From: a bacterium
GTDB taxonomy: Bacteria > Vulcanimicrobiota > Vulcanimicrobiia > Vulcanimicrobiales > Vulcanimicrobiaceae
Assembly (NCBI GenBank): GCA_021832345.1
Contig: JAKBKY010000011.1
Location: 1-32,199, forward strand
Direction of reading: 5' to 3'
DNA: 32,199 bases
The number at the start of each line of letters is the position of its first letter. Position 1 is the stretch's first letter. Position numbers and translations under genes: made by a program. The notes under the pieces are model-generated. The model was not told the origin of the DNA. It searched no databases and worked only from the letters and a program-made list of their open reading frames with translations. Shown piece by piece: positions 2,176-20,390 of this stretch.

Positions 2176-2298
2176 GGGCATGGTCATAGCAGCCGCGGTC
2201 AGCCAGGCCGATCCCCCGAACCAAGGATCAGCAAGCGATAACGCGGTACCCGTTACCCAACCCCGCTAGTGCGGTGGCCAGGAGCCAAGGGAGGTATC

Positions 2299-4182
2299 AT
2301 GCAGCTCTTTGCGGGTGCGACAGCCGACTTTCTACGCTACGACGAAAAACGCGAGATCGATAAACAACTCTCGGTTAGCTATCTCGATTACTACGGCTAT
2401 GCGGTGTCGGCTTCCGAGGCGAATTCCTGGCGTCATTCGTTGCATGCCGTGGCTTCTCAGATCCGCGACATGAATCTGCTCAAACATGGCATTATTCTGG
2501 AAATGCAGTTGCCGCTTACCTCAAGGCGATTGGATTGCATGCTCACTGGTATCGCCTCCGATGGGACGCCGTCGGCCACAATTATCGAACTAAAGCAGTG
2601 GAGCATGGCCGCTCCGGCGGAAGAAGACGAGTGTGTCGAAGTTGACATGGGCCGTAGCCGGCGTACGCAACTCCACCCGTCGGTGCAGGCAGCTTCCTAC
2701 GCGACATATCTTCAGGACAATCGCAGCGTGTTTTATGAAGAACCTTGCGTCGCGCTCTCGTCGTGCAGTTGGCTCCATAATTTCCAACAAGACCCGAGTT
2801 CAACATTACTTGACAAAGGAAAGTTTGGGGATGCCCTTGCGGTCGCACCCCTGTTCTGTGCGAATAACACCGACGAACTTGCCGTGTTCATCGACGAGCG
2901 CGTGGGGCATGGCCCCGGGCTGGAGGTTCTAGAGCGGGTTATCAGTAGCCGTTTCGCGCCAAGCAAGAAGCTCATGGAGTATACTGCGGCAACTATCTCT
3001 GGCACCGCTGCTTACACTCTGCTCGATGAACAGCGCGTCGCTTACGAGAAAATCCTTAGTGCTGTCCAACGCGCCCTGCGGCGTGGGGAACGCAGCGTCG
3101 TCCTGATTGAAGGCGGTCCCGGGACAGGGAAGTCCGTGGTCGCCCTCAACGTCATGGCAACGCTCCTTGGGCGGCATGTCCGCGTGTCGCATGCAACAGG
3201 ATCAAAGGCCTTTACGGAAAACCTGCGGAGCGTGCTCGGACGCAGAGCCGGTTCAAGTTTCCGCTACTTTAACAGTTTTACGCAAGCAGCCGACGGTGAC
3301 CTTGATGTCATCCTTTGCGACGAGGCCCATCGCATTCGGATGAGTAGCAACTCGCGGTTTACTCCTGCCGGTCGACGTAGTGATCGTCAGCAAGTGGACG
3401 AGATCATCGACGCAGCAAAAGTGGCTGTATTTTTTATTGACGATCGGCAAGGTGTGCGCCCGGACGAAGTGGGCTCGTCGCGACTCATCCGTGAAGCCGC
3501 CGCAGCGCATGACGCGCGCTTCGCTCAGGAGCGCCTCGAAGCGCAGTTTCGTTGTGCCGGCTCCGACGCGTACATCGACTGGGTCAACGCACTCCTGGGG
3601 CTTGGTGCATCCAGCGAGGGGGCCTTCGAGCTGGTTGACGGCGGCTTTGATATACGTGTTTACAACTCACCCGAGGAAATTGAGCGCGAACTACTCGGTC
3701 GGATTGCGCAAGGCGCCTCGGCTCGTATGACCGCCGGGTTCTGCTGGCCCTGGTCGGATCCGCGCAATGGAAAATTGGTCGAGGATGTGGTCGTCGGAGC
3801 CTATCGCCGCCCGTGGAACGCCAAGCCGGATGGCGTGTGTTTGCCGGCCGGTGTGCCCAAATCAAGTTTCTGGGCGACCGATCCCAAGGGGTTTGCGCAG
3901 GTTGGCTGCATCTATACGGCTCAGGGATTCGAGTTTGATTACGTCGGCGTGATTTGGGGCCCAGATTTGGTTTATCGAGCAGCAGATGGCGGTTGGCAAG
4001 GCGTCAAGGCTGCGTCACAAGATCGAAACGTCAAGCGCGCGTCGACGGACGAGTTTATCCACTTGCTCAAGAATACATATCGCGTACTTCTGACGCGTGG
4101 GATGAAGGGATGTTATCTTGCCATCTCCGACATCGAAACTCGCAACTATATTTCTGGCCTGCTTTGCAACGCGCGCGCCTGA
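2299..4182 (+). CDS. PD-(D/E)XK nuclease-like / DUF2075 (Schlafen-type SF1) helicase fusion
   Basis: This 627-residue protein starts at ATG 2299 behind a strong Shine-Dalgarno sequence (AAGGGAGGT). The N-terminal half (about 1-235) contains RRLDCML (D79) and ATIIELKQWS (E97, K99), a D...E-x-K arrangement like the PD-(D/E)XK nuclease core. The second half is a DUF2075 superfamily-1 ATPase: Walker A GGPGTGKS (272-279), DEAH (341-344), FIDDRQ (379-384), QFRC (416-419), IYTAQGFEFDYVGVIWG (538-554) and NTYRVLLTRGMKG (592-604). All motor motifs look intact. DUF2075 proteins are often found in defence or mobile loci, and here the gene follows mazEF directly. A role in anti-phage defence or nucleic-acid processing is inference. 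It is lower in GC than the arginine genes, which is compatible with transfer. Confidence 0.85.
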   Translation: MQLFAGATADFLRYDEKREIDKQLSVSYLDYYGYAVSASEANSWRHSLHAVASQIRDMNLLKHGIILEMQLPLTSRRLDCMLTGIASDGTPSATIIELKQWSMAAPAEEDECVEVDMGRSRRTQLHPSVQAASYATYLQDNRSVFYEEPCVALSSCSWLHNFQQDPSSTLLDKGKFGDALAVAPLFCANNTDELAVFIDERVGHGPGLEVLERVISSRFAPSKKLMEYTAATISGTAAYTLLDEQRVAYEKILSAVQRALRRGERSVVLIEGGPGTGKSVVALNVMATLLGRHVRVSHATGSKAFTENLRSVLGRRAGSSFRYFNSFTQAADGDLDVILCDEAHRIRMSSNSRFTPAGRRSDRQQVDEIIDAAKVAVFFIDDRQGVRPDEVGSSRLIREAAAAHDARFAQERLEAQFRCAGSDAYIDWVNALLGLGASSEGAFELVDGGFDIRVYNSPEEIERELLGRIAQGASARMTAGFCWPWSDPRNGKLVEDVVVGAYRRPWNAKPDGVCLPAGVPKSSFWATDPKGFAQVGCIYTAQGFEFDYVGVIWGPDLVYRAADGGWQGVKAASQDRNVKRASTDEFIHLLKNTYRVLLTRGMKGCYLAISDIETRNYISGLLCNARA

Positions 4183-12125: not shown

Positions 12126-13328
12126 TCACTTTGGAATATAGAACTCGTTAGCAACCGAGCCGAGCGTCTCCGTCAACACGTTGATCTCGTCTCGTGTGAT
12201 GATGAGCGGCGGTGCGAAGCGCAGCGTGTTTCCGCCGGCGGTGCCGACGAGTACCCCGCGCTCGCGTAGCGCTGCAGCGAATTCTGCGGCTTGGTGCGGT
12301 GCTTTCACCGGTAGCGCGAGCAGCAAGCTGCGCCCGCGCGGCTCCGCAAAGAGCCCCGAAAAGTCGCGCGCGACGCCCTGCAGTCGTTCCATCGCATAGG
12401 CCCCGACCGCGCGCACGTGCGCATCGAGATTCAGTTCGTCCCGAACGCGCAGGTGCGCCAGCGCAGCCGCGGCACTCACGGGCGAACCTCCGAAGGTCGA
12501 TCCGTGATCCCCAGGCAGGAAGCCGTCCAGCGCGCTCGCGCCGACTAACATTGCCCCGATCGGCAAGCCGTTGCCTAGCGCCTTCGCCATCGTGACGAGA
12601 TCCGGGCGCACGCCAACGCTTTGAAACGCGAAGAGATCGCCCAGGCGCCCCATGCCGCATTGAATCTCATCGAAGACGAGCAACGCGCCGCGCTCGCTGC
12701 AGAGTTCCCGTGCGCGTGCCAGAAACTGCGCGCTTGCCGGATGCACACCGCTCTCGCCCTGGACCGGTTCGACGATGAACGCCGCAACGCGTTCGTCGAT
12801 CGCCTCTTCCAGCGCAGCGCTATCGTTGAACGGCGTGAAGGCAAAGTCGCCCGGCAGCGGCCCGAAGCCGACGCGATAAGCCGGGTTCTCGGTGGCGGCC
12901 AGCGCGCCGTAGGTGCGCCCATGAAAGGAGCCGCTGCACGCGAGGATCGTCGTTCGGCCCGGTTCACCTCGACGGTACGCGAGTTTCCGCGCGAGCTTGA
13001 TCGCCGCTTCGTTGGCCTCCGTGCCGGAGTTGCAGAAGAAGGCTCGCGCGAACCCTGAACGCCGGGTGAGCTCCTGCGCGAGTCTCCCCGAGGGCTCGTG
13101 GTAGTAGAGATTGCTTGCATGCACGAGGGTCCGCGCCTGCGTCGCCACCGCGTCGGCGATCGCCGGGTGCGCATGCCCAAGCGCACAGACGGCGATCCCG
13201 GCGATCGCATCGAGGTAGCGCCGACCGCGATCGTCGATGAGGTAGCATCCCTCTCCGGAGACAAAGCACACCGGAGCGCGCGCGTAGTTCCCCAACAGCG
13301 CGTTCTCGCCGTCGAATACCTCGCTCAT
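12126..13328 (-). CDS. argD: acetylornithine aminotransferase
   Basis: This is a 400-residue class-III PLP aminotransferase, the usual ArgD length. Motifs include FFCNSGTEANEAAIKLARK (97-115), the PLP phosphate site, VFDEIQCGMGRLG (218-230) with D220/Q223, and VTMAKALGNGLPIGAM (245-260) with the Schiff-base lysine K249. It transfers an amino group from glutamate to N-acetylglutamate semialdehyde. ATG 13328 overlaps the argJ stop as ATGA, and the resulting N-terminus (ENALLGNYARAPVCFVSGEG) matches the family start. It is the last gene of the arginine operon. Confidence 0.95.
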   Translation of the reverse strand: MSEVFDGENALLGNYARAPVCFVSGEGCYLIDDRGRRYLDAIAGIAVCALGHAHPAIADAVATQARTLVHASNLYYHEPSGRLAQELTRRSGFARAFFCNSGTEANEAAIKLARKLAYRRGEPGRTTILACSGSFHGRTYGALAATENPAYRVGFGPLPGDFAFTPFNDSAALEEAIDERVAAFIVEPVQGESGVHPASAQFLARARELCSERGALLVFDEIQCGMGRLGDLFAFQSVGVRPDLVTMAKALGNGLPIGAMLVGASALDGFLPGDHGSTFGGSPVSAAAALAHLRVRDELNLDAHVRAVGAYAMERLQGVARDFSGLFAEPRGRSLLLALPVKAPHQAAEFAAALRERGVLVGTAGGNTLRFAPPLIITRDEINVLTETLGSVANEFYIPK

Positions 13329-14548
13329 GTGCGGTAGCTCGCATTGATGCGCACGTAGTCGCGCGAGAGATCGCAGCCCCACGCGGTCGCGCCGGCCTCG
13401 CCAAGGCCCAGATGCACCTCGACGACGATCTCGTGTTGTTCCAGCTCTGCATGCGCCTGCGCCTCGGAGAGCCGTTCGATCCCGCCTTCGTCCACCCAGG
13501 GCTTGTCGTTGAGCACCAGCGACCAGCGCGCCGGATCGACCCCGGCCTTCACCGCTCCGGCCGCCGCGATGATGCGTCCCCAGTTCGGATCCTCGCCGTA
13601 GAGTGCCGTCTTGACGAGGTTGGAGTTGATGATCGCCCGGGCCACCGTGCGCGCTTGCGGCTCATCGTGTGCACCCAGCACACGTACCTCTAGGCGTTTG
13701 GTCGCGCCCTCGCCGTCATCTACCATGGCGAGCGCAAGGTCGAGCGCAACGCGGCGGAACGCAAGCAGAAAGGCCGGCGGCGGAGCAGCATCGCCGACCG
13801 GTGCAAACGCATACACCGCATCGTTGGTGGACATATCGCCGTCCACCGAGATCATGTTAAACGTCTCGTCGGTCGCCTGCCGTAGCGCGGTGTCGAGACT
13901 CGCGCGCTGCATCGGCAGATCGGTTGCAATGAACGCGAGCATCGTCGCCATGTTGGGGGCGATCATCCCCGAGCCTTTGGCAACTCCACCGACCACGTAG
14001 CGCTTCTCCTGATGGTAGAACGCGTAGGCCGCGAGCTTGGGAACTCGATCGGTGGTCATGATGGCTTCGGCGGCGTCGTGGGCGGCCTTGCCGCCCTCCT
14101 CGAGTTGTGCAACGCAGCGTTCCAGCCCGCGCTGCACGCGATCTAGCGGCAACGGTACGCCGATGACGCCCGTCGAGGCGACCACGACCTGCGTCGCTGC
14201 GATGCCGAGCAGCGCACCGGCTTGCGCGGCGGTCGCACGCACATCGCGTTCGCCGCGCTCGCCCGTGCAGGCGTTGGCGCAACCGGAGTTGCAGACGAGC
14301 GCGCGCATCGTGGCCCCCTCGGCTGCCAGATGCTCGGCGCTCACGAGAATCGGCGCGGCCTTCATCTCGTTGGTGGTCACCACCGCTGCACAGAGTTGCT
14401 CGCGGTCGAAGGTGACGAGCGCCAGATCGCGCTTGCGCCGTTTGATGCCGGCGTGAACGCCGGCCAGGCGTACGCCGGGCACACTGCCAAGCCCGCCGCG
14501 CAGCGCGATCAATCGCGTTTGGTTCTCAGGCAAGGGCGGTGCGAGCAT
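13325..14548 (-). CDS. argJ: glutamate N-acetyltransferase / amino-acid acetyltransferase
   Basis: This 407-residue protein carries the autoproteolysis site GMIAPNMATMLAFIATD (194-210), with T202 the expected nucleophile that becomes the N-terminus of the beta chain. Other family blocks are LVCNSGCANACTG (84-96) and the C-terminal SRDYVRINASYRT. ArgJ moves the acetyl group from N-acetylornithine to glutamate, closing the cyclic pathway; bifunctional forms also use acetyl-CoA. No argA is present here, so a bifunctional enzyme is plausible but unproven. Its ATG lies 23 bp inside argC, the longest overlap in the operon. Confidence 0.95.
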   Translation of the reverse strand: MLAPPLPENQTRLIALRGGLGSVPGVRLAGVHAGIKRRKRDLALVTFDREQLCAAVVTTNEMKAAPILVSAEHLAAEGATMRALVCNSGCANACTGERGERDVRATAAQAGALLGIAATQVVVASTGVIGVPLPLDRVQRGLERCVAQLEEGGKAAHDAAEAIMTTDRVPKLAAYAFYHQEKRYVVGGVAKGSGMIAPNMATMLAFIATDLPMQRASLDTALRQATDETFNMISVDGDMSTNDAVYAFAPVGDAAPPPAFLLAFRRVALDLALAMVDDGEGATKRLEVRVLGAHDEPQARTVARAIINSNLVKTALYGEDPNWGRIIAAAGAVKAGVDPARWSLVLNDKPWVDEGGIERLSEAQAHAELEQHEIVVEVHLGLGEAGATAWGCDLSRDYVRINASYRT

Positions 14549-15494
14549 GCAAGCCTTCCTCCTCGGGATACCCGAGCATGATGTTGACGTTCTGAATGGC
14601 CTGCGCCGCAGCGCCCTTGCCGAGATTATCGATCGCGCAGATCACGCGCACCATCGCGCCGCGGACATCGACGCGGATCTCCGCATCGTTGGTGCCCACC
14701 ACGGCAGCCACGCTTGGAACGCGTTCGTTTGTGAGCACGCGCACGAACGGCTCGTCGCGATAGGCTGCGTCGTAGGCCGCCGCGATCGCTTCCGGGTCGG
14801 GTGGGCAGGCGTAGAAGGCGTAGACGTCGACCAGCATGCCTCGTGCCAACGGCACGACGTGCGGCGTAAACGTGATCGGCAGCTCGACGCCACGGCGGCG
14901 CAGCTCCTGCGCGATCTCGGGCTCGTGGCGATGCCCCTGGAGCGCATACGCACGAATATCGCCGCTCACTTCGGCAAAGAGCGATCCAAGCTGCGGCGTA
15001 CGCCCGGCACCGGTGATTCCGCTCTTGGCGTCGATGGCGATCCCAAGCGGCATCGCGGCTCGCACGAGCGGCAGCAGCGCCAAGAGCGACGCGGTGGGGT
15101 AGCAGCCGGGGTTGGCGACCAGCCGCGCGCCGGCAATCGTTGCGCGATGGTATTCGGGCAGCCCATAGACGGCCAGCGGATCGAAGCGATAGTCGGCCGA
15201 GAGATCGACCACGCGCGCACCCTGCGCAAGAAACTTCCCCACCTGCGCGCGGGCCTCCCCCGATGCGCCGGCGATGATAACGATATCGCCCGGCGCAAGC
15301 TGCGCAAGCACCGCTCCGGATGCTGCGAAATGCAGCGTGCTGCGCCGCAAGTGCGCAAACGTGTCCGCAACGCAGGCGCCTGCGTGCGTTCGACTCTCGA
15401 AGATGCCGGCTTCAAGGCGCGGGTGCCCTTCGATCCAGGCAATCGCTTCGGCCGCGGCATAACCGCCCGCGCCCCAGACGTGGACGCGCGTCAT
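14526..15494 (-). CDS. argC: N-acetyl-gamma-glutamyl-phosphate reductase
   Basis: This is a 322-residue NADPH-dependent reductase. It has a Rossmann start (VWGAGGYAAAEAIAWIEGHP, 6-25), the catalytic cysteine C131 in VANPGCYPTASLLAL (126-140), and the substrate/His region GHRHEPEI (187-194). It reduces ArgB's product to N-acetylglutamate semialdehyde. Most ArgC proteins have a LALPHG stretch after the second beta strand; here that place reads IIAGASGEA (73-81). The protein is therefore a divergent subtype, though the catalytic Cys and His are kept. ATG 15494 overlaps the argH stop as ATGA. Confidence 0.93.
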   Translation of the reverse strand: MTRVHVWGAGGYAAAEAIAWIEGHPRLEAGIFESRTHAGACVADTFAHLRRSTLHFAASGAVLAQLAPGDIVIIAGASGEARAQVGKFLAQGARVVDLSADYRFDPLAVYGLPEYHRATIAGARLVANPGCYPTASLLALLPLVRAAMPLGIAIDAKSGITGAGRTPQLGSLFAEVSGDIRAYALQGHRHEPEIAQELRRRGVELPITFTPHVVPLARGMLVDVYAFYACPPDPEAIAAAYDAAYRDEPFVRVLTNERVPSVAAVVGTNDAEIRVDVRGAMVRVICAIDNLGKGAAAQAIQNVNIMLGYPEEEGLHARTALA

Positions 15495-16903
15495 GGCAGG
15501 TGCTCCAAGGCGGCCAGCTCTTCGGCGAGCGCATCGAGCGCACGCGCAACGCAGACAGGCGACGTCGATCCTTCGGTGCGTTTGGCGGCGACGCTGGCTG
15601 CGGCGTCGAGCGGCGCAGAGAACGCCGGGTTATCGAGCGTCGCGCCGAGTGCCTGCAGGTCGCTTGCATCGAGGGCACGCCGCGCCTCTTCAGCCAGGCA
15701 GACGCGAGCGCCGACCAGGCTATGCGCTTGCCTGGCATCGAGCCCGCTCGCGACCAGCGCTTCAGCGAGATCCGTGGCCACGACGTAGCCGTCGTTTGCG
15801 GCAGCGTTCATCTTCTCCGCAACGAAGGTTACGTCGTCCAAGGCTCGAGCAAAGGCGTCGAGCAAGCTCATCGCACGTTCGATGCAGCCGATTGCAAGGC
15901 GCTTGCACTGCTGCAGATCGCGGTGGTAGGAGAGCGGCAGGCCGATGAGCGTCGTCAGCGCTCCTGTGTAGGCTGCGGTGACCTCATGCGCTCCACCGCG
16001 CACCAGTTCGAAGATGTCGGGATTGCGCTTCTGCGGCATCAGGCTTGAGCCCGTCGAAGAAGCATCGCCGATGCGCACGTAGCCGAATGGTCCGCCGGCC
16101 CAGACGACCAACTCCGCGCAGATGCGCGAGGCCGATGCGCAGGCGCGCACCCAGGCATGCGCGCAATCCAGCAACGCATCGCGCGTGCCGATCGCATCGA
16201 GCGCATTACGCGAGGGCTCTGCAAAGCCGAGCAGGTTCGCCGCTGCGCGTCGGTCGAGCGGTAAGCTCGACCCTGCAAGCGCTGCAGATCCGAGCGGCAT
16301 CGAGTGCATCGCTTCCGCCGCTACGGTCGCAAACGCACGCGCCGCGCGAGCGAAGGGCTCGGCGGCCGCAGCGAGCCAGAACGCAAGTGAGATCGGCTGC
16401 GCCGGCTGCCCATGCGTGGTGCCGGCCAGCAGCGTGCCTGCGGCAAGCTCCTGACGCGCGCGTTCGAGCAGTCGCTGCGCGATCGCCAGGCAGCGGTTCT
16501 TCCCGGCCTGCGCGCGCGCAGCGGCATAGAGGCAGAGCGTGGTCGCAACCTGGTCGTTGCGGCTGCGCCCGGCATGGAGCCGGGCGCCGGCTACCGGCGC
16601 GAGCTCCCGAACGCGTGCGTCGATGGCGCCGTGAATGTCCTCTGCGCCGCCGCTGCGCGCCGCCGCCGCAAAGGAGCCGTCACCGATCTCGCAGACGACG
16701 GCATCGAGCGCCGCACGCAGCGCATCCGCCGTCTGCTCGTCGATGATGCCGCCGCCGGCTAGCGCACAGACGTGCGCCTGCGAACAGCGCGCATCGAACG
16801 CCGCCAGCGGCAGATCGTCTTCAAGCGACGAGCCAAACGCCAGCAGCTCCGGATCGGCGGCACCGCGAAAGCGACCGCCCCACTGCAGGGTCTGCGATGT
16901 CAT
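15491..16903 (-). CDS. argH: argininosuccinate lyase
   Basis: This 470-residue fumarase/aspartase-superfamily enzyme is of normal length. The three conserved blocks are HAGRSRNDQVAT (110-121), TTHGQPAQPISL (162-173) and the superfamily signature GSSLMPQKRNPD (285-296), whose second serine is the catalytic base region. It splits argininosuccinate into arginine and fumarate. A longer in-frame extension to 16957 exists, but ATG 16903 gives the canonical LQWGGRF start and overlaps the argG stop as ATGA. Confidence 0.95.
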   Translation of the reverse strand: MTSQTLQWGGRFRGAADPELLAFGSSLEDDLPLAAFDARCSQAHVCALAGGGIIDEQTADALRAALDAVVCEIGDGSFAAAARSGGAEDIHGAIDARVRELAPVAGARLHAGRSRNDQVATTLCLYAAARAQAGKNRCLAIAQRLLERARQELAAGTLLAGTTHGQPAQPISLAFWLAAAAEPFARAARAFATVAAEAMHSMPLGSAALAGSSLPLDRRAAANLLGFAEPSRNALDAIGTRDALLDCAHAWVRACASASRICAELVVWAGGPFGYVRIGDASSTGSSLMPQKRNPDIFELVRGGAHEVTAAYTGALTTLIGLPLSYHRDLQQCKRLAIGCIERAMSLLDAFARALDDVTFVAEKMNAAANDGYVVATDLAEALVASGLDARQAHSLVGARVCLAEEARRALDASDLQALGATLDNPAFSAPLDAAASVAAKRTEGSTSPVCVARALDALAEELAALEHLP

Positions 16904-18114
16904 TGGGCAGTGCCGATCCCCAGATGCGCCAGCCGGTCGAACGGTAGCCCGTAACACCGAATAAATCCATCGGCAGCATGGTGATCGAAGCGGTCGCCCT
17001 CACCATACGTCGCCAGGTGCTCATCGTAGAGTGCAAACGGCGAGCGCAGGCCGATCACGGTTGCACTGCCCTGATGCAAGCGCATGGCAACGTCGCCCGT
17101 GATGCGCGTAGCAAAGGAGCCGTTGAACGCATCGAGCGCGCTGCGCAGCGGCGAATGCCAGAGCCCGTCGTAGGCAAGCTCTGCATAGCGCCGATCGACG
17201 CCGGCTTTGAAGCGCAGCTCATCGCGCGTGAGGACCAGTCGTTCGAGCGCTTCGTGCGCGAGAAGAAGAAGCGTCGCTGCGGGCGCTTCGTAGAGTTCGC
17301 GTGACTTCACGCCGATCACGCGGTCTTCGATGAGATCGATTCTCCCGATGCCGTGCGAGCCGGCTAGTACGTTGAGCTGTGCGAGCAGGGCGGCGCCGCT
17401 GATGGCTTCAACGCTCGGAACGCCCCGCTCAAAGTGCACGACGATCTCGCTTGGCAGCGTTGGGCGGTTCTGCGGCGCGGCCGTCCAGGCGAAGGCATCC
17501 TCCGGCGGCGCCGCCCACGGATCTTCCAGCACTCCCGCTTCAATCGAGCGGCCCCAGAGATTGGCATCGATCGAGTAGGGCTTGCTAGAACTCTGCGACA
17601 CCGGAATGCCGTGCTCGGCGGCATACGCCATCGCATCGGGGCGTGAGAGCGGCGATTGGCGCAACGGAGCGCGCACTTCGAGAGTCGTATCGAGCGCCCG
17701 GACGGCCAGCTCGATGCGCACCTGGTCGTTCCCCTTGCCGGTGCATCCATGTGCGACCGCGTCAGCCTTCACCGCTCGCGCAGTCTCGACCAAGAGCGCG
17801 GCGATCAAGGGGCGCGAGAGCGCGGCACTGAGCGGATAGACGCCTTCGTAACGGGCGTTGGCGGCAAGTGCGGGCAGCACGTACTCGCTGACAAAGCGCT
17901 GCCGGGCGTCGATCGTATGCGCCTGCCGCGCGCCCAGCGCCAGCGCCTTGGCGCGAACCTGCGCGATCTCGTCGGCGGCACGCGCTCCGATCTGCGCGTC
18001 GCTCTCACCCAAGTCGGCCGTCATCGTGACCACCTCGTGCCCTTCCAGGAGCAAGCGCTTGAGCAAGACCGAGGTGTCGAGGCCGCCGGAGTATGCTAAG
18101 ACGATCGTGCTCAC
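16900..18114 (-). CDS. argG: argininosuccinate synthase
   Basis: This 404-residue protein begins with the ATP-pyrophosphatase loop (VLAYSGGLDTSVLLK, residues 5-19). It continues with a citrulline-binding region (NARYEGVYPLSAALSRPLIA) and HGCTGKGNDQVRIE, both diagnostic for ArgG. It condenses citrulline and aspartate at the cost of ATP. Translation starts at GTG 18114, which overlaps the argR stop as GTGA. Length and motifs are complete. Confidence 0.96.
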   Translation of the reverse strand: MSTIVLAYSGGLDTSVLLKRLLLEGHEVVTMTADLGESDAQIGARAADEIAQVRAKALALGARQAHTIDARQRFVSEYVLPALAANARYEGVYPLSAALSRPLIAALLVETARAVKADAVAHGCTGKGNDQVRIELAVRALDTTLEVRAPLRQSPLSRPDAMAYAAEHGIPVSQSSSKPYSIDANLWGRSIEAGVLEDPWAAPPEDAFAWTAAPQNRPTLPSEIVVHFERGVPSVEAISGAALLAQLNVLAGSHGIGRIDLIEDRVIGVKSRELYEAPAATLLLLAHEALERLVLTRDELRFKAGVDRRYAELAYDGLWHSPLRSALDAFNGSFATRITGDVAMRLHQGSATVIGLRSPFALYDEHLATYGEGDRFDHHAADGFIRCYGLPFDRLAHLGIGTAQ

Positions 18115-18584
18115 GCGGCGCTCGTTCCACGCAGGTCGAGAAAGCGCTGAACGAGCATCGCAGTCTTGGTTGCATCGCGCACGATGACGAGGATGGTATC
18201 GTCTCCGCCGATCGTCCCCATCACTTCGGGCCAGGCCGCTTCGTCGAGCGCACAGGCTACCATCATCGCGCTGCCCGGAGGGGTCTTGAGCACGATGAAG
18301 TTGCCACTGCCTTCGGCCTGAAGCACGAGTTCGGCGACGACGCGATGCAGTCGGCTGACATACTGCGTGGAAGCGCTTGGGACGACATATTTAAAGAGCG
18401 CGTCATCCTCGCTCTCGCCCTTTATCGGCACCTTGACCAAGCCAAGCTCCTTGATATCGCGAGAGACCGTCGCTTGTGTCGCATCGAAACCGGAGGCAGA
18501 GAGTAACGAGACCAACTCGTCCTGCGAGTGGATCGGGCGCGTCGCGACAAGCGTAAGGATCGCGCGCTGGCGGCGCTCTTTCAT
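18111..18584 (-). CDS. argR: arginine repressor ArgR
   Basis: This 157-residue regulator has an N-terminal winged helix (RRQRAILTLVATRPIHSQDE to ATQATVSRDIKELGLVKVP) and a C-terminal arginine-binding hexamerisation domain ending with MGTIGGDDTILVIVRD. ArgR with bound arginine represses biosynthetic promoters at ARG boxes; the palindrome between argF and argB is the obvious local target. The gene sits second in its own operon, so it would be autoregulated. ATG 18584 overlaps the argF stop as ATGA, and GGAAAGGAAC provides a ribosome binding site. Confidence 0.95.
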   Translation of the reverse strand: MKERRQRAILTLVATRPIHSQDELVSLLSASGFDATQATVSRDIKELGLVKVPIKGESEDDALFKYVVPSASTQYVSRLHRVVAELVLQAEGSGNFIVLKTPPGSAMMVACALDEAAWPEVMGTIGGDDTILVIVRDATKTAMLVQRFLDLRGTSAA

Positions 18585-19558
18585 AAGGTGGTTCCTTTCC
18601 CATCGGTCATGAGTGCAAGTAAGAGCGCCTTCTGCGCGTGGAGGCGATTTTCGGCTTGATCGAAGACCAGGCTGCGCGTGCCGTCGATCACCCCGGCTGC
18701 AACCTCTTGCCCGCGATGAGCAGGTAAGCAGTGCATGAAGATCGCGTGCGATGCTGCATAGGTGAACGACGCTTGCGTCACCGCGTAGGGCAGAAGCATC
18801 GCGCTGTTGCGTTCGTGCAGATGCTCGTCGCCCATCGACGTCCACACATCGGTGTAGACGACATCGGCGCCTCGCAGTGCGCGGATCGGATCGGTGAACG
18901 CGCGCGCCTCGCCGCCGCGACCGGCACCCAGCTTCGCCAGATGAGCGAGCATGGCTTGGCTTGGCCGATGGGAGAGCGGTGTCGCAAAGCGCATCGATCC
19001 ACCGAGCATCACCACGGCCTGTGCGAGCGAATGCGCCACGTTGTTGCGCCCATCGCCGAGATAGACGACGCGCAGACCCGCAACCGAACCGAAGCGCTCT
19101 TCGATCGTCAGGATGTCGGCGAGCGCCTGGCAGGGGTGGGCGCGAGCGGAGAGGCCGTTGATCACCGGAATACTCGCTGCGCGTGCGAAGCGTTCGAGCG
19201 GTTCGTGCGCGTGCGTTCGCACGACGATGGCGTCGACGTAGCGGGAGAGCACGCGCGCCGCGTCTTCAGGGCTCTCGCGTGTGCCGACGAGCATCTCGTT
19301 GCCGGCGGCGAAGAGCGCCTCCCCGCCCAGCGTCGTGATGGCGACTTCGAAGGAGACCCGCGTTCGCAGGCTCGGCTTTTCAAAGAGCAGTGCGAGCGTG
19401 CGGCCGCGCAGCAAGGTGCGGGCCGAAGGCGCAACGCCGGCCTTGAGCTCGTGCGCCAGGCGGAGGATCCCGCCCAGCTCGTCCGTGCTCAGGTCGGCCG
19501 GTTCCAGGAAACTTCTGCCCTGCAGCGGGTTGGCAGGGGCTAGCGGCGTGGCATACAT
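18581..19558 (-). CDS. argF: ornithine carbamoyltransferase
   Basis: This is 325 residues from ATG 19558. The carbamoyl-phosphate motif is FEKPSLRTRVSFE (59-71), a known variant of S-T-R-T-R. HPCQALADI (141-149), TDVWTSMGDE and the ornithine/catalytic Cys loop FMHCLPAHRGQEV are all present. It makes citrulline from ornithine and carbamoyl phosphate. A second start, ATG 19579, lies seven codons upstream at the centre of the operator palindrome, 6-8 nt after a -10-like element. If the mRNA is leaderless, that ATG is the true start and adds MCINIHL. It is the first gene of the minus-strand arginine operon. Confidence 0.94.
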   Translation of the reverse strand: MYATPLAPANPLQGRSFLEPADLSTDELGGILRLAHELKAGVAPSARTLLRGRTLALLFEKPSLRTRVSFEVAITTLGGEALFAAGNEMLVGTRESPEDAARVLSRYVDAIVVRTHAHEPLERFARAASIPVINGLSARAHPCQALADILTIEERFGSVAGLRVVYLGDGRNNVAHSLAQAVVMLGGSMRFATPLSHRPSQAMLAHLAKLGAGRGGEARAFTDPIRALRGADVVYTDVWTSMGDEHLHERNSAMLLPYAVTQASFTYAASHAIFMHCLPAHRGQEVAAGVIDGTRSLVFDQAENRLHAQKALLLALMTDGKGTTL

Positions 19559-19562
19559 CAGG

Positions 19563-19595
19563 TGTATATTTATGCACATGTCGCATAAATATGCA
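19563..19595. promoter_or_regulatory. ARG-box-like operator and divergent promoters of argF and argB
   Basis: TGTATATTTATGC (19563-19575) and GCATAAATATGCA (19583-19595) form an inverted repeat of 13-bp arms with one mismatch around a 7-nt spacer. The AT-rich dyad with ATAAATAT cores resembles ArgR operators. The spacer contains ACATGT, which supplies ATG on both strands: + 19578-19580 for argB and - 19579-19577 for argF. -10-like hexamers (TATATT 19565-19570 on +, CATATT 19593-19588 on -) precede them by 7 and 8 nt. No good -35 was found at standard spacing for these hexamers. Confidence 0.7.
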
Positions 19596-20390
19596 AGCCT
19601 GCCTCCTCGGTCGACCCTGGTTCTCAAGTATGGGGGCAGTGCGATGGCCGGCCTCCCCGGGGAGGAGGTGCTCGCCGAGGTCGCGGCGCTGCATGCGCAA
19701 GGGCACGGCGTCCTCCTCGTGCATGGGGGCGGCCCCGAGATCGACAGCGCGCTGGCAGCGGCCGGCCTGGCGAGCGAGCGCATCGACGGCCTGCGCGTTA
19801 CCACCGAAGCGACGCTGGCGGTGACGGAGATGGTGCTCTGCGCAACGATCAATAAGCGCTTGGTCCGGGCGCTTGTCGCAGCCGGAGTGCGCGCCGTCGG
19901 CATCAGCGGAGAAGATGACGGCCTGCTGCGTGCACGGCGTTCGCAGCGTTACGACGGCAAGCTCGGCTTCGTCGGTGAGGGCGTTGCCTGCGAGCCGCGC
20001 TTGCTGCACGCGCTGCTCGCAGCCGGCATCGTGCCGGTGGTCGCGCCGCTGGCGCTGAGCAAGGATGCAACGCACGCGCTCAACGTCAACGCCGATGAAG
20101 CCGCAGGCGCGGTTGCGGGTGCCATGCGTGCTGCAGCGCTGCTCTTCGTCACCGATGTTGCGCGCCTACGCGCCGTCGCCGATGATCCAGCGAGCGCTAT
20201 CGACCGGCTCACCGTTGCGCAGGCGCGCGCGTTCTTGCTTAGCGATGCATGCCGCGACGGCATGCGCCCGAAAGTACGCGCAGCGATCGCCGCGCACGAA
20301 GCCGGCGTGAAGGCTGTCTATCTCTGTGCATCGGGGCCCGAGGCGATTGCGCGCGCGCTCGACGACCAGGATGCAACCGTCCTCGCCTGA
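19578..20390 (+). CDS. argB: acetylglutamate kinase
   Basis: This 270-residue amino-acid kinase has STLVLKYGGSAM (12-23), with the catalytic lysine region, VHGGGPEID (48-56), and HALNVNADEAAGAVAGAM (166-183), with the conserved N-x-NAD-x-A. The second phosphate-binding lysine is in GMRPKVRA (228-235). It phosphorylates N-acetylglutamate. Start options are ATG 19578 or 19572, both inside the operator. A longer open frame upstream only reads through argF antisense. There is no Shine-Dalgarno, consistent with a leaderless transcript. Confidence 0.94.
   Translation: MSHKYASLPPRSTLVLKYGGSAMAGLPGEEVLAEVAALHAQGHGVLLVHGGGPEIDSALAAAGLASERIDGLRVTTEATLAVTEMVLCATINKRLVRALVAAGVRAVGISGEDDGLLRARRSQRYDGKLGFVGEGVACEPRLLHALLAAGIVPVVAPLALSKDATHALNVNADEAAGAVAGAMRAAALLFVTDVARLRAVADDPASAIDRLTVAQARAFLLSDACRDGMRPKVRAAIAAHEAGVKAVYLCASGPEAIARALDDQDATVLA

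Follow-up and report, generated by a model that had tools for sequence, protein, structure and literature searches.

A candidate ArgR operator that may double as a divergent, nearly leaderless promoter in an arginine cluster of Vulcanimicrobiaceae

The putative ArgR operator described here, the single one of its arginine cluster, probably also drives transcription in both directions and leaves hardly any untranslated leader. ArgR binding, promoter activity, transcription start sites and leaderless translation are all deduced from sequence comparisons. The site lies between argF and argB in a window (the whole stretch of DNA that was analysed) of 32,199 nucleotides, in which the following features are relevant:

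12126-18114, minus strand: argG-argH-argC-argJ-argD, identified by NCBIfam matches, downstream of argF-argR on the same strand
18111-18584, minus strand: argR, arginine repressor of the ArgR/AhrC type (TIGR01529, 138.7 bits against a cut-off of 130.45)
18581-19558, minus strand: argF, ornithine carbamoyltransferase (TIGR00658/NF001986), start ATG 19558-19556
19563-19576: ARG box 1, core TGTATATTTATGCA (full 18-mer 19561-19578), conserved in 54 non-redundant loci; consensus compared with PMC4865122
19565-19570, plus strand: TATATT, putative -10 element of argB, 7 nt from ATG 19578
19569-19574, minus strand: CATAAA, putative -10 element of argF, 10 nt from ATG 19558
19577-19581: spacer of 5 bp that separates the two box cores and holds the argB start codon
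19578-20390, plus strand: argB, acetylglutamate kinase (TIGR00761, 208.8 bits), start ATG 19578
19582-19595: ARG box 2, core CGCATAAATATGCA (full 18-mer 19580-19597), within argB codons 2-6
19591-19596, minus strand: TTGCAT, weak -35-like element of argF as read from the sequence, on the outer edge of box 2 and 16 bp ahead of CATAAA

The genes argF-argR-argG-argH-argC-argJ-argD putatively form one operon. The stop codon of argF and the start codon of argR overlap as ATGA (18581-18584, minus strand), suggesting that argR may be translationally coupled to argF; were this so, ArgR would control its own synthesis via the operator. Among named relatives, those nearest to the ArgB protein come from metagenome-assembled genomes of Candidatus Eremiobacterota.

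Positions 19563-19595 read TGTATATTTATGCA-CATGT-CGCATAAATATGCA, a 33-bp dyad having 14-bp arms complementary at 12 of 14 positions. The hexamer ACATGT (19576-19581) occupies the centre, and supplies an ATG to either strand (19578-19580 on the plus, 19579-19577 on the minus strand); the two triplets have two bases in common. The dyad and the two overlapping ATGs, already pointed out in a preliminary description of the region, are directly read in the sequence. When a degenerate version of the dyad was searched allowing up to 3 mismatches, 19563-19595 was the sole match in the whole 2.34-Mb genome, and exactly one match per genome was found in 58 of 99 genomes of the same family, which are non-independent samples, the named ones being metagenome-assembled genomes. 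The reversed pattern, used as control, gave 0 matches in the same 99 genomes. The single match, its recurrence once per genome and the empty control indicate that the dyad is real, and beyond chance. Most of the 17 genomes which carry argR but no pattern match do have the site, with shifted spacing or more mismatches. Each arm of the dyad is a palindrome in its own right, and matches an ARG box. Box centres are 19 bp apart, which leaves 1 bp between the 18-mers, and the length of the spacer is fixed within this 19-bp class. In the genera g33 and g19 the centres are spaced by 20 bp, the spacer is one base longer, and 2 bp separate the 18-mers. Conservation in relatives had been set beforehand as a test: the dyad and the argB ATG passed it, the ACATGT centre did not. 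CATATG is commoner at the centre, and mostly places the minus-strand ATG outside the argF frame. Some species of genus g19 show drift of both the spacer and box 2 (loci L202 of genome G105 and L114 of G104; for example TGTATATTTATACAATATAAAGTATGTTTATGCA in L202), apparently showing the element caught in transition.

Box 1 holds -10-like elements facing both directions, and the two hexamers, TATATT and CATAAA, overlap by 2 bp on opposite strands. TATATT, TATTAT or TATAAT is present in every locus of the 19-bp class in which argB starts in the operator; on the argF side, CATAAA, CATAAT, TATAAA or TATAAT is found in nearly all loci. A scan with the sigma-70 consensus gave no -35/-10 pair above threshold at the operator, and no recognisable -35 was found there for argB. 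The -10-like hexamers initially noted ahead of either ATG are indeed present, TATATT ending 7 nt before the plus-strand ATG, TATTTA or CATATT ending 6 or 8 nt before the minus-strand ATG. For the argF -10, however, the opposite arm is a less likely position than box 1, which also holds the argB -10. If 6-7 nt are assumed between hexamer and start, the predicted argB and argF start sites lie 15-17 bp apart; start sites of bidirectional promoters in E. coli are most often 18 bp apart (PMC12825309). A T-rich half of box 1 as the mark of whichever side has a promoter (TGTATA for argB; TATAAT for argF in g9) did not prove general, since g19 has TGCATA on the argB side though argB starts there.

The start codon of argB falls inside the operator in 25 loci from 10 genera, 7 nt after the TATATT/TATTAT/TATAAT hexamer in 20 loci and 10 nt after it in the remaining 5. 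In g33 and g19, where boxes are spaced by 20 bp, the start, either ATG or GTG, shifts along to 8 nt. No alternative start codon occurs between the spacer start and the conserved KYGG motif in 11 of the 25 loci, the window included, where no in-frame start is found from 19578 on to residues K17-Y18-G19-G20 of ArgB. Spacer GTG or TTG triplets were also considered as argB starts in g26 and g21, and discarded because of in-frame stops in g26, and alternative starts with a Shine-Dalgarno (SD)-like motif in g21.

In none of the loci was an SD tetramer found within the 17 nt preceding argF. On the argB side one occurs in the window only, CAGGTG at 19559-19564, located 7 nt before an in-frame ATG at 19572. 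The claim that there is no room for an argB SD is thus inexact for the window. All relatives compared lack the motif, so that CAGGTG is probably accidental. The hypothesis of an ordinary ArgR operator with short-leadered mRNAs, initiated further upstream for one or both genes and translated either without SD or from ATG 19572 via CAGGTG, draws on this motif, on the ATG found at the place of 19572 in most relatives, and on the failure to detect a strong -35. That ATG is there since box 1 contains TTATGCA, and it is missing in L008, L013 and L083, which have TATACA in box 1 and the spacer ATG only. Furthermore, a promoter placed further left would fall in argF coding DNA, one placed further right in argB coding DNA. 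Taken together with the confinement of CAGGTG to the window, these observations make a short-leader arrangement unlikely.

The favoured view that argB mRNA lacks a leader was examined against 832 kb of the window genome, processed as 20-kb stretches with a home-made gene caller, whose errors in calling starts dilute the signal. TANNNT, a sequence whose presence upstream of the start is a criterion for inferring leaderless genes in bacteria (PMC3160421), was found 6-7 nt before the start of first genes 14 times versus 4.1 expected (Poisson p about 9e-5), and SD motifs peak at -9 to -14. Refining the hexamer to TATAAT-like -10 sequences gave 13 occurrences versus 2.5 expected, a figure which is illustrative only, as the motif was picked after looking. 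This genome probably has a minority of leaderless genes, and uses SD motifs as well. As for argB, the leaderless signature is there: TATATT, 7 nt and ATG form a conserved series, accompanied by no SD in relatives and by the non-conserved CAGGTG in the window. The early suggestion of a leaderless argB mRNA is thus supported by the geometry of the site, the lack of a conserved SD, and the modest genome-wide peak of -10 hexamers 6-7 nt before starts. On the other side, 10 nt separate the -10-like hexamer from the argF start in the window and in most cases, with values of 7-11 nt among relatives and of 7 nt in family f2. The argF leader would then measure about 0-4 nt, and may be a few nt long rather than absent. 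It seems thus probable that argB is leaderless, and argF near-leaderless.

The start of argF had been placed inside the spacer, so that both genes would start there, with the two ATGs interlocked in ACATGT and each -10 in the opposite arm. Such geometry does exist in the window, where the argF frame is open from the ATG at 19579, and four relatives have an in-frame ATG at the same position. Yet, 52 of 52 scorable loci keep an in-frame start, ATG in 46 and GTG in 6, which lies 2-6 bp beyond the outer side of box 1 and corresponds to 19558 of the window. Loci in which argF alone has the operator, argB being elsewhere (genera g9, g31 and g15, among others), have this outer start too, and so do L025-L027, which belong to another family of the order. 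An in-frame spacer ATG is available to argF in only 10 of 54 loci (window, L006, L012, L073, L075, L080-L083, L120), at two different positions, that of the window being found in five of the 10; all 10 loci also retain the outer start. Many relatives have ATA in place of the spacer ATG, or an in-frame stop inside the operator. The minus-strand ATG at 19577-19579 has therefore been rejected as argF start because not conserved among relatives, and joint initiation from the spacer is regarded as very unlikely. On the evidence of conservation argF starts at ATG 19558, which makes the interlocking of the two start codons incidental; their exact arrangement is a coincidence of the window genome.

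The site is viewed as an ArgR-type operator because it matches the ARG box, argR is the next gene after argF, and arginine genes flank it on both sides. At the sequence level it has what is expected of ARG boxes, which are imperfect 18-bp palindromes, usually paired, located at promoters of arginine genes where the genome also codes for ArgR. The encoded repressor matches solved ArgR structures (best group 3ere/3fhz/3laj/3lap, E=6e-31), and keeps both the recognition-helix motif TQATVSRD and the motif GTIGGDDT. That the dyad serves another regulator has only a slight chance of being correct. The 1-bp gap between the 18-mers might be taken in this sense, as the gap measures 3 bp in E. coli (PMC6245113) and 2 bp in Streptomyces clavuligerus (PMC3293853). 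However, separations in S. coelicolor range from 1 to 208 nt (PMC3293853), and the values of 1 bp in the window and 2 bp in g33 and g19 are at the small end, but inside, of the reported range. In addition, the 14-base core of box 2 differs from the Streptomyces ARG-box consensus, AWTGCATRWWYATGCAWT (PMC4865122), by one mismatch, at the first base, an argR gene with intact motifs resides in the same cluster, and the site adjoins argF in every genome. The notion that the dyad acts not as a DNA operator but as an RNA hairpin of some leader transcript is suggested by its palindromic nature and is next to untenable, as the dyad runs across the start codon of argB into its coding sequence, serves two opposite genes, is made of boxes each of which is a palindrome matching a known protein site, and leaves no leader space either way.

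The repressor gene was found in 57 of 58 operator-bearing genomes. The co-occurrence (Fisher p about 5e-11) is confounded by the joint loss of the whole cluster, for which reason it is not used as proof. About one fourth of the genomes of the family lack argF, argR and the operator together (among which G063-G070, G035, G013 and G009), and several of them are 94-98% complete, suggesting that the arginine cluster has been lost, or replaced by a divergent one.

According to the operator-promoter model favored here, when arginine is plentiful ArgR would bind the two tandem ARG boxes, whose centres are 19 bp apart, and a hexamer sitting on the pair would mask the argB start codon along with the cores of the two promoters. 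Within box 1 the -10 elements would work face to face, TATATT firing right into argB, and CATAAA left into argF-argR-argGHCJD. Transcription of argB would start at about 19577-19578, on the ATG itself, giving rise to a leaderless mRNA; that of argF would start at about 19561-19562, so that some 3-4 nt of leader would precede ATG 19558. Box 2 would be the argF -35 region and also argB codons 2-6. A single repressor footprint would thus block both promoters. The first proposal of an ArgR-type operator spanning the argB start codon and the two promoter cores is supported by the sequence, ArgR binding being the predicted component.

Box 2 is coding DNA as well, and encodes in part the N-terminal tail of ArgB, MSHKYAS. 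The third position of argB codons in box 2 is G or C in 27 of 140 cases (19%), a few of which come from five g26 and g21 loci later set aside, versus 80% in the remainder of the same genes. Such a low value indicates that selection acts on DNA, and the H-K/N-Y-A tail of ArgB is, judging from this bias, a translation of operator sequence. Other members of the family have an argB that begins past the operator, or sits at another place; the overlap is thus a feature of some lineages, and not a requirement of ArgB. A wider proposal, to which we give slightly less than an even chance, is that a fused element exists throughout the family: box 1 would be at once a half-operator and the shared -10 region of opposite promoters, box 2 a half-operator, the argF -35 region and the ArgB N-terminus, and both mRNAs would be effectively leaderless. 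If so, RNA polymerase could transcribe toward only one side at any moment, and the argF-argB pair would be silenced by ArgR from one site, argB start codon included.

In the argECBH region of E. coli the ArgR operator lies over the divergent promoters, and compared with the leaders made there, those predicted at the window locus are absent, or a few nt long. The resemblance resides in having divergent arginine genes controlled by one ArgR operator, as reported for the bipolar argECBH control region in the account of Piette et al. 1982 cited in PMC4258820, though here the arrangement is predicted from sequence. In contrast to argECBH, the pair is made of argF and argB, the control region spans about 37 bp, and a start codon is located between the boxes. 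The site may be thus described as a compressed, apparently leaderless counterpart of the bipolar E. coli region. The consensus TGCATRWWYATGCA and the tandem boxes are shared with the Streptomyces argCJBDR operator, which has two 18-bp boxes (PMC3293853); the gap measures 1 bp here (19 bp between centres) rather than 2 bp, and the operator extends over a start codon. ARG boxes within coding DNA have a precedent in B. subtilis, where one box resides inside the argC coding region (PMC3293853). That is a single-box second operator, whereas box 2 is half of the sole operator, and encodes the ArgB N-terminus. As in bidirectional promoters with a symmetric -10 (PMC12825309), the putative opposite -10 elements share bases, and the predicted starts, 15-17 bp apart, are near the 18-bp mode; here, differently, the symmetry would also form a repressor site, and predicted starts are on, or beside, start codons. 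Finally, in leaderless genes TANNNT precedes the start by about 12 bp (PMC3160421), and argB resembles such genes in that a -10-like hexamer stands 7 nt ahead of its ATG and a conserved SD is lacking, but differs in being part of a divergent pair within one operator. In the literature searched, neither an arg operator nor leaderless transcription has been described in Eremiobacterota, and nothing was found on this point by combining ArgR, leaderless and start codon.

The operator, if confirmed, would extend ArgR control to Eremiobacterota, a little-studied bacterial phylum. It would also provide a compact case of a repressor site dictating protein sequence, as operator codons account for the additional residues at the ArgB N-terminus, and makes the combination of bidirectional promoter and leaderless message testable on one 40-bp fragment.

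Away from the arginine genes, the plus strand of the window encodes at 1562-2175 an ordinary type II toxin-antitoxin pair, in which the gene of a MazE-like antitoxin (PF04014) comes first and overlaps that of a PemK/MazF-like toxin (PF02452). A 637-aa protein having a Schlafen group 3 DNA/RNA helicase domain (PF09848) is encoded directly after the pair, at 2269-4182 on the same strand, and the neighbourhood is possibly defence-related.
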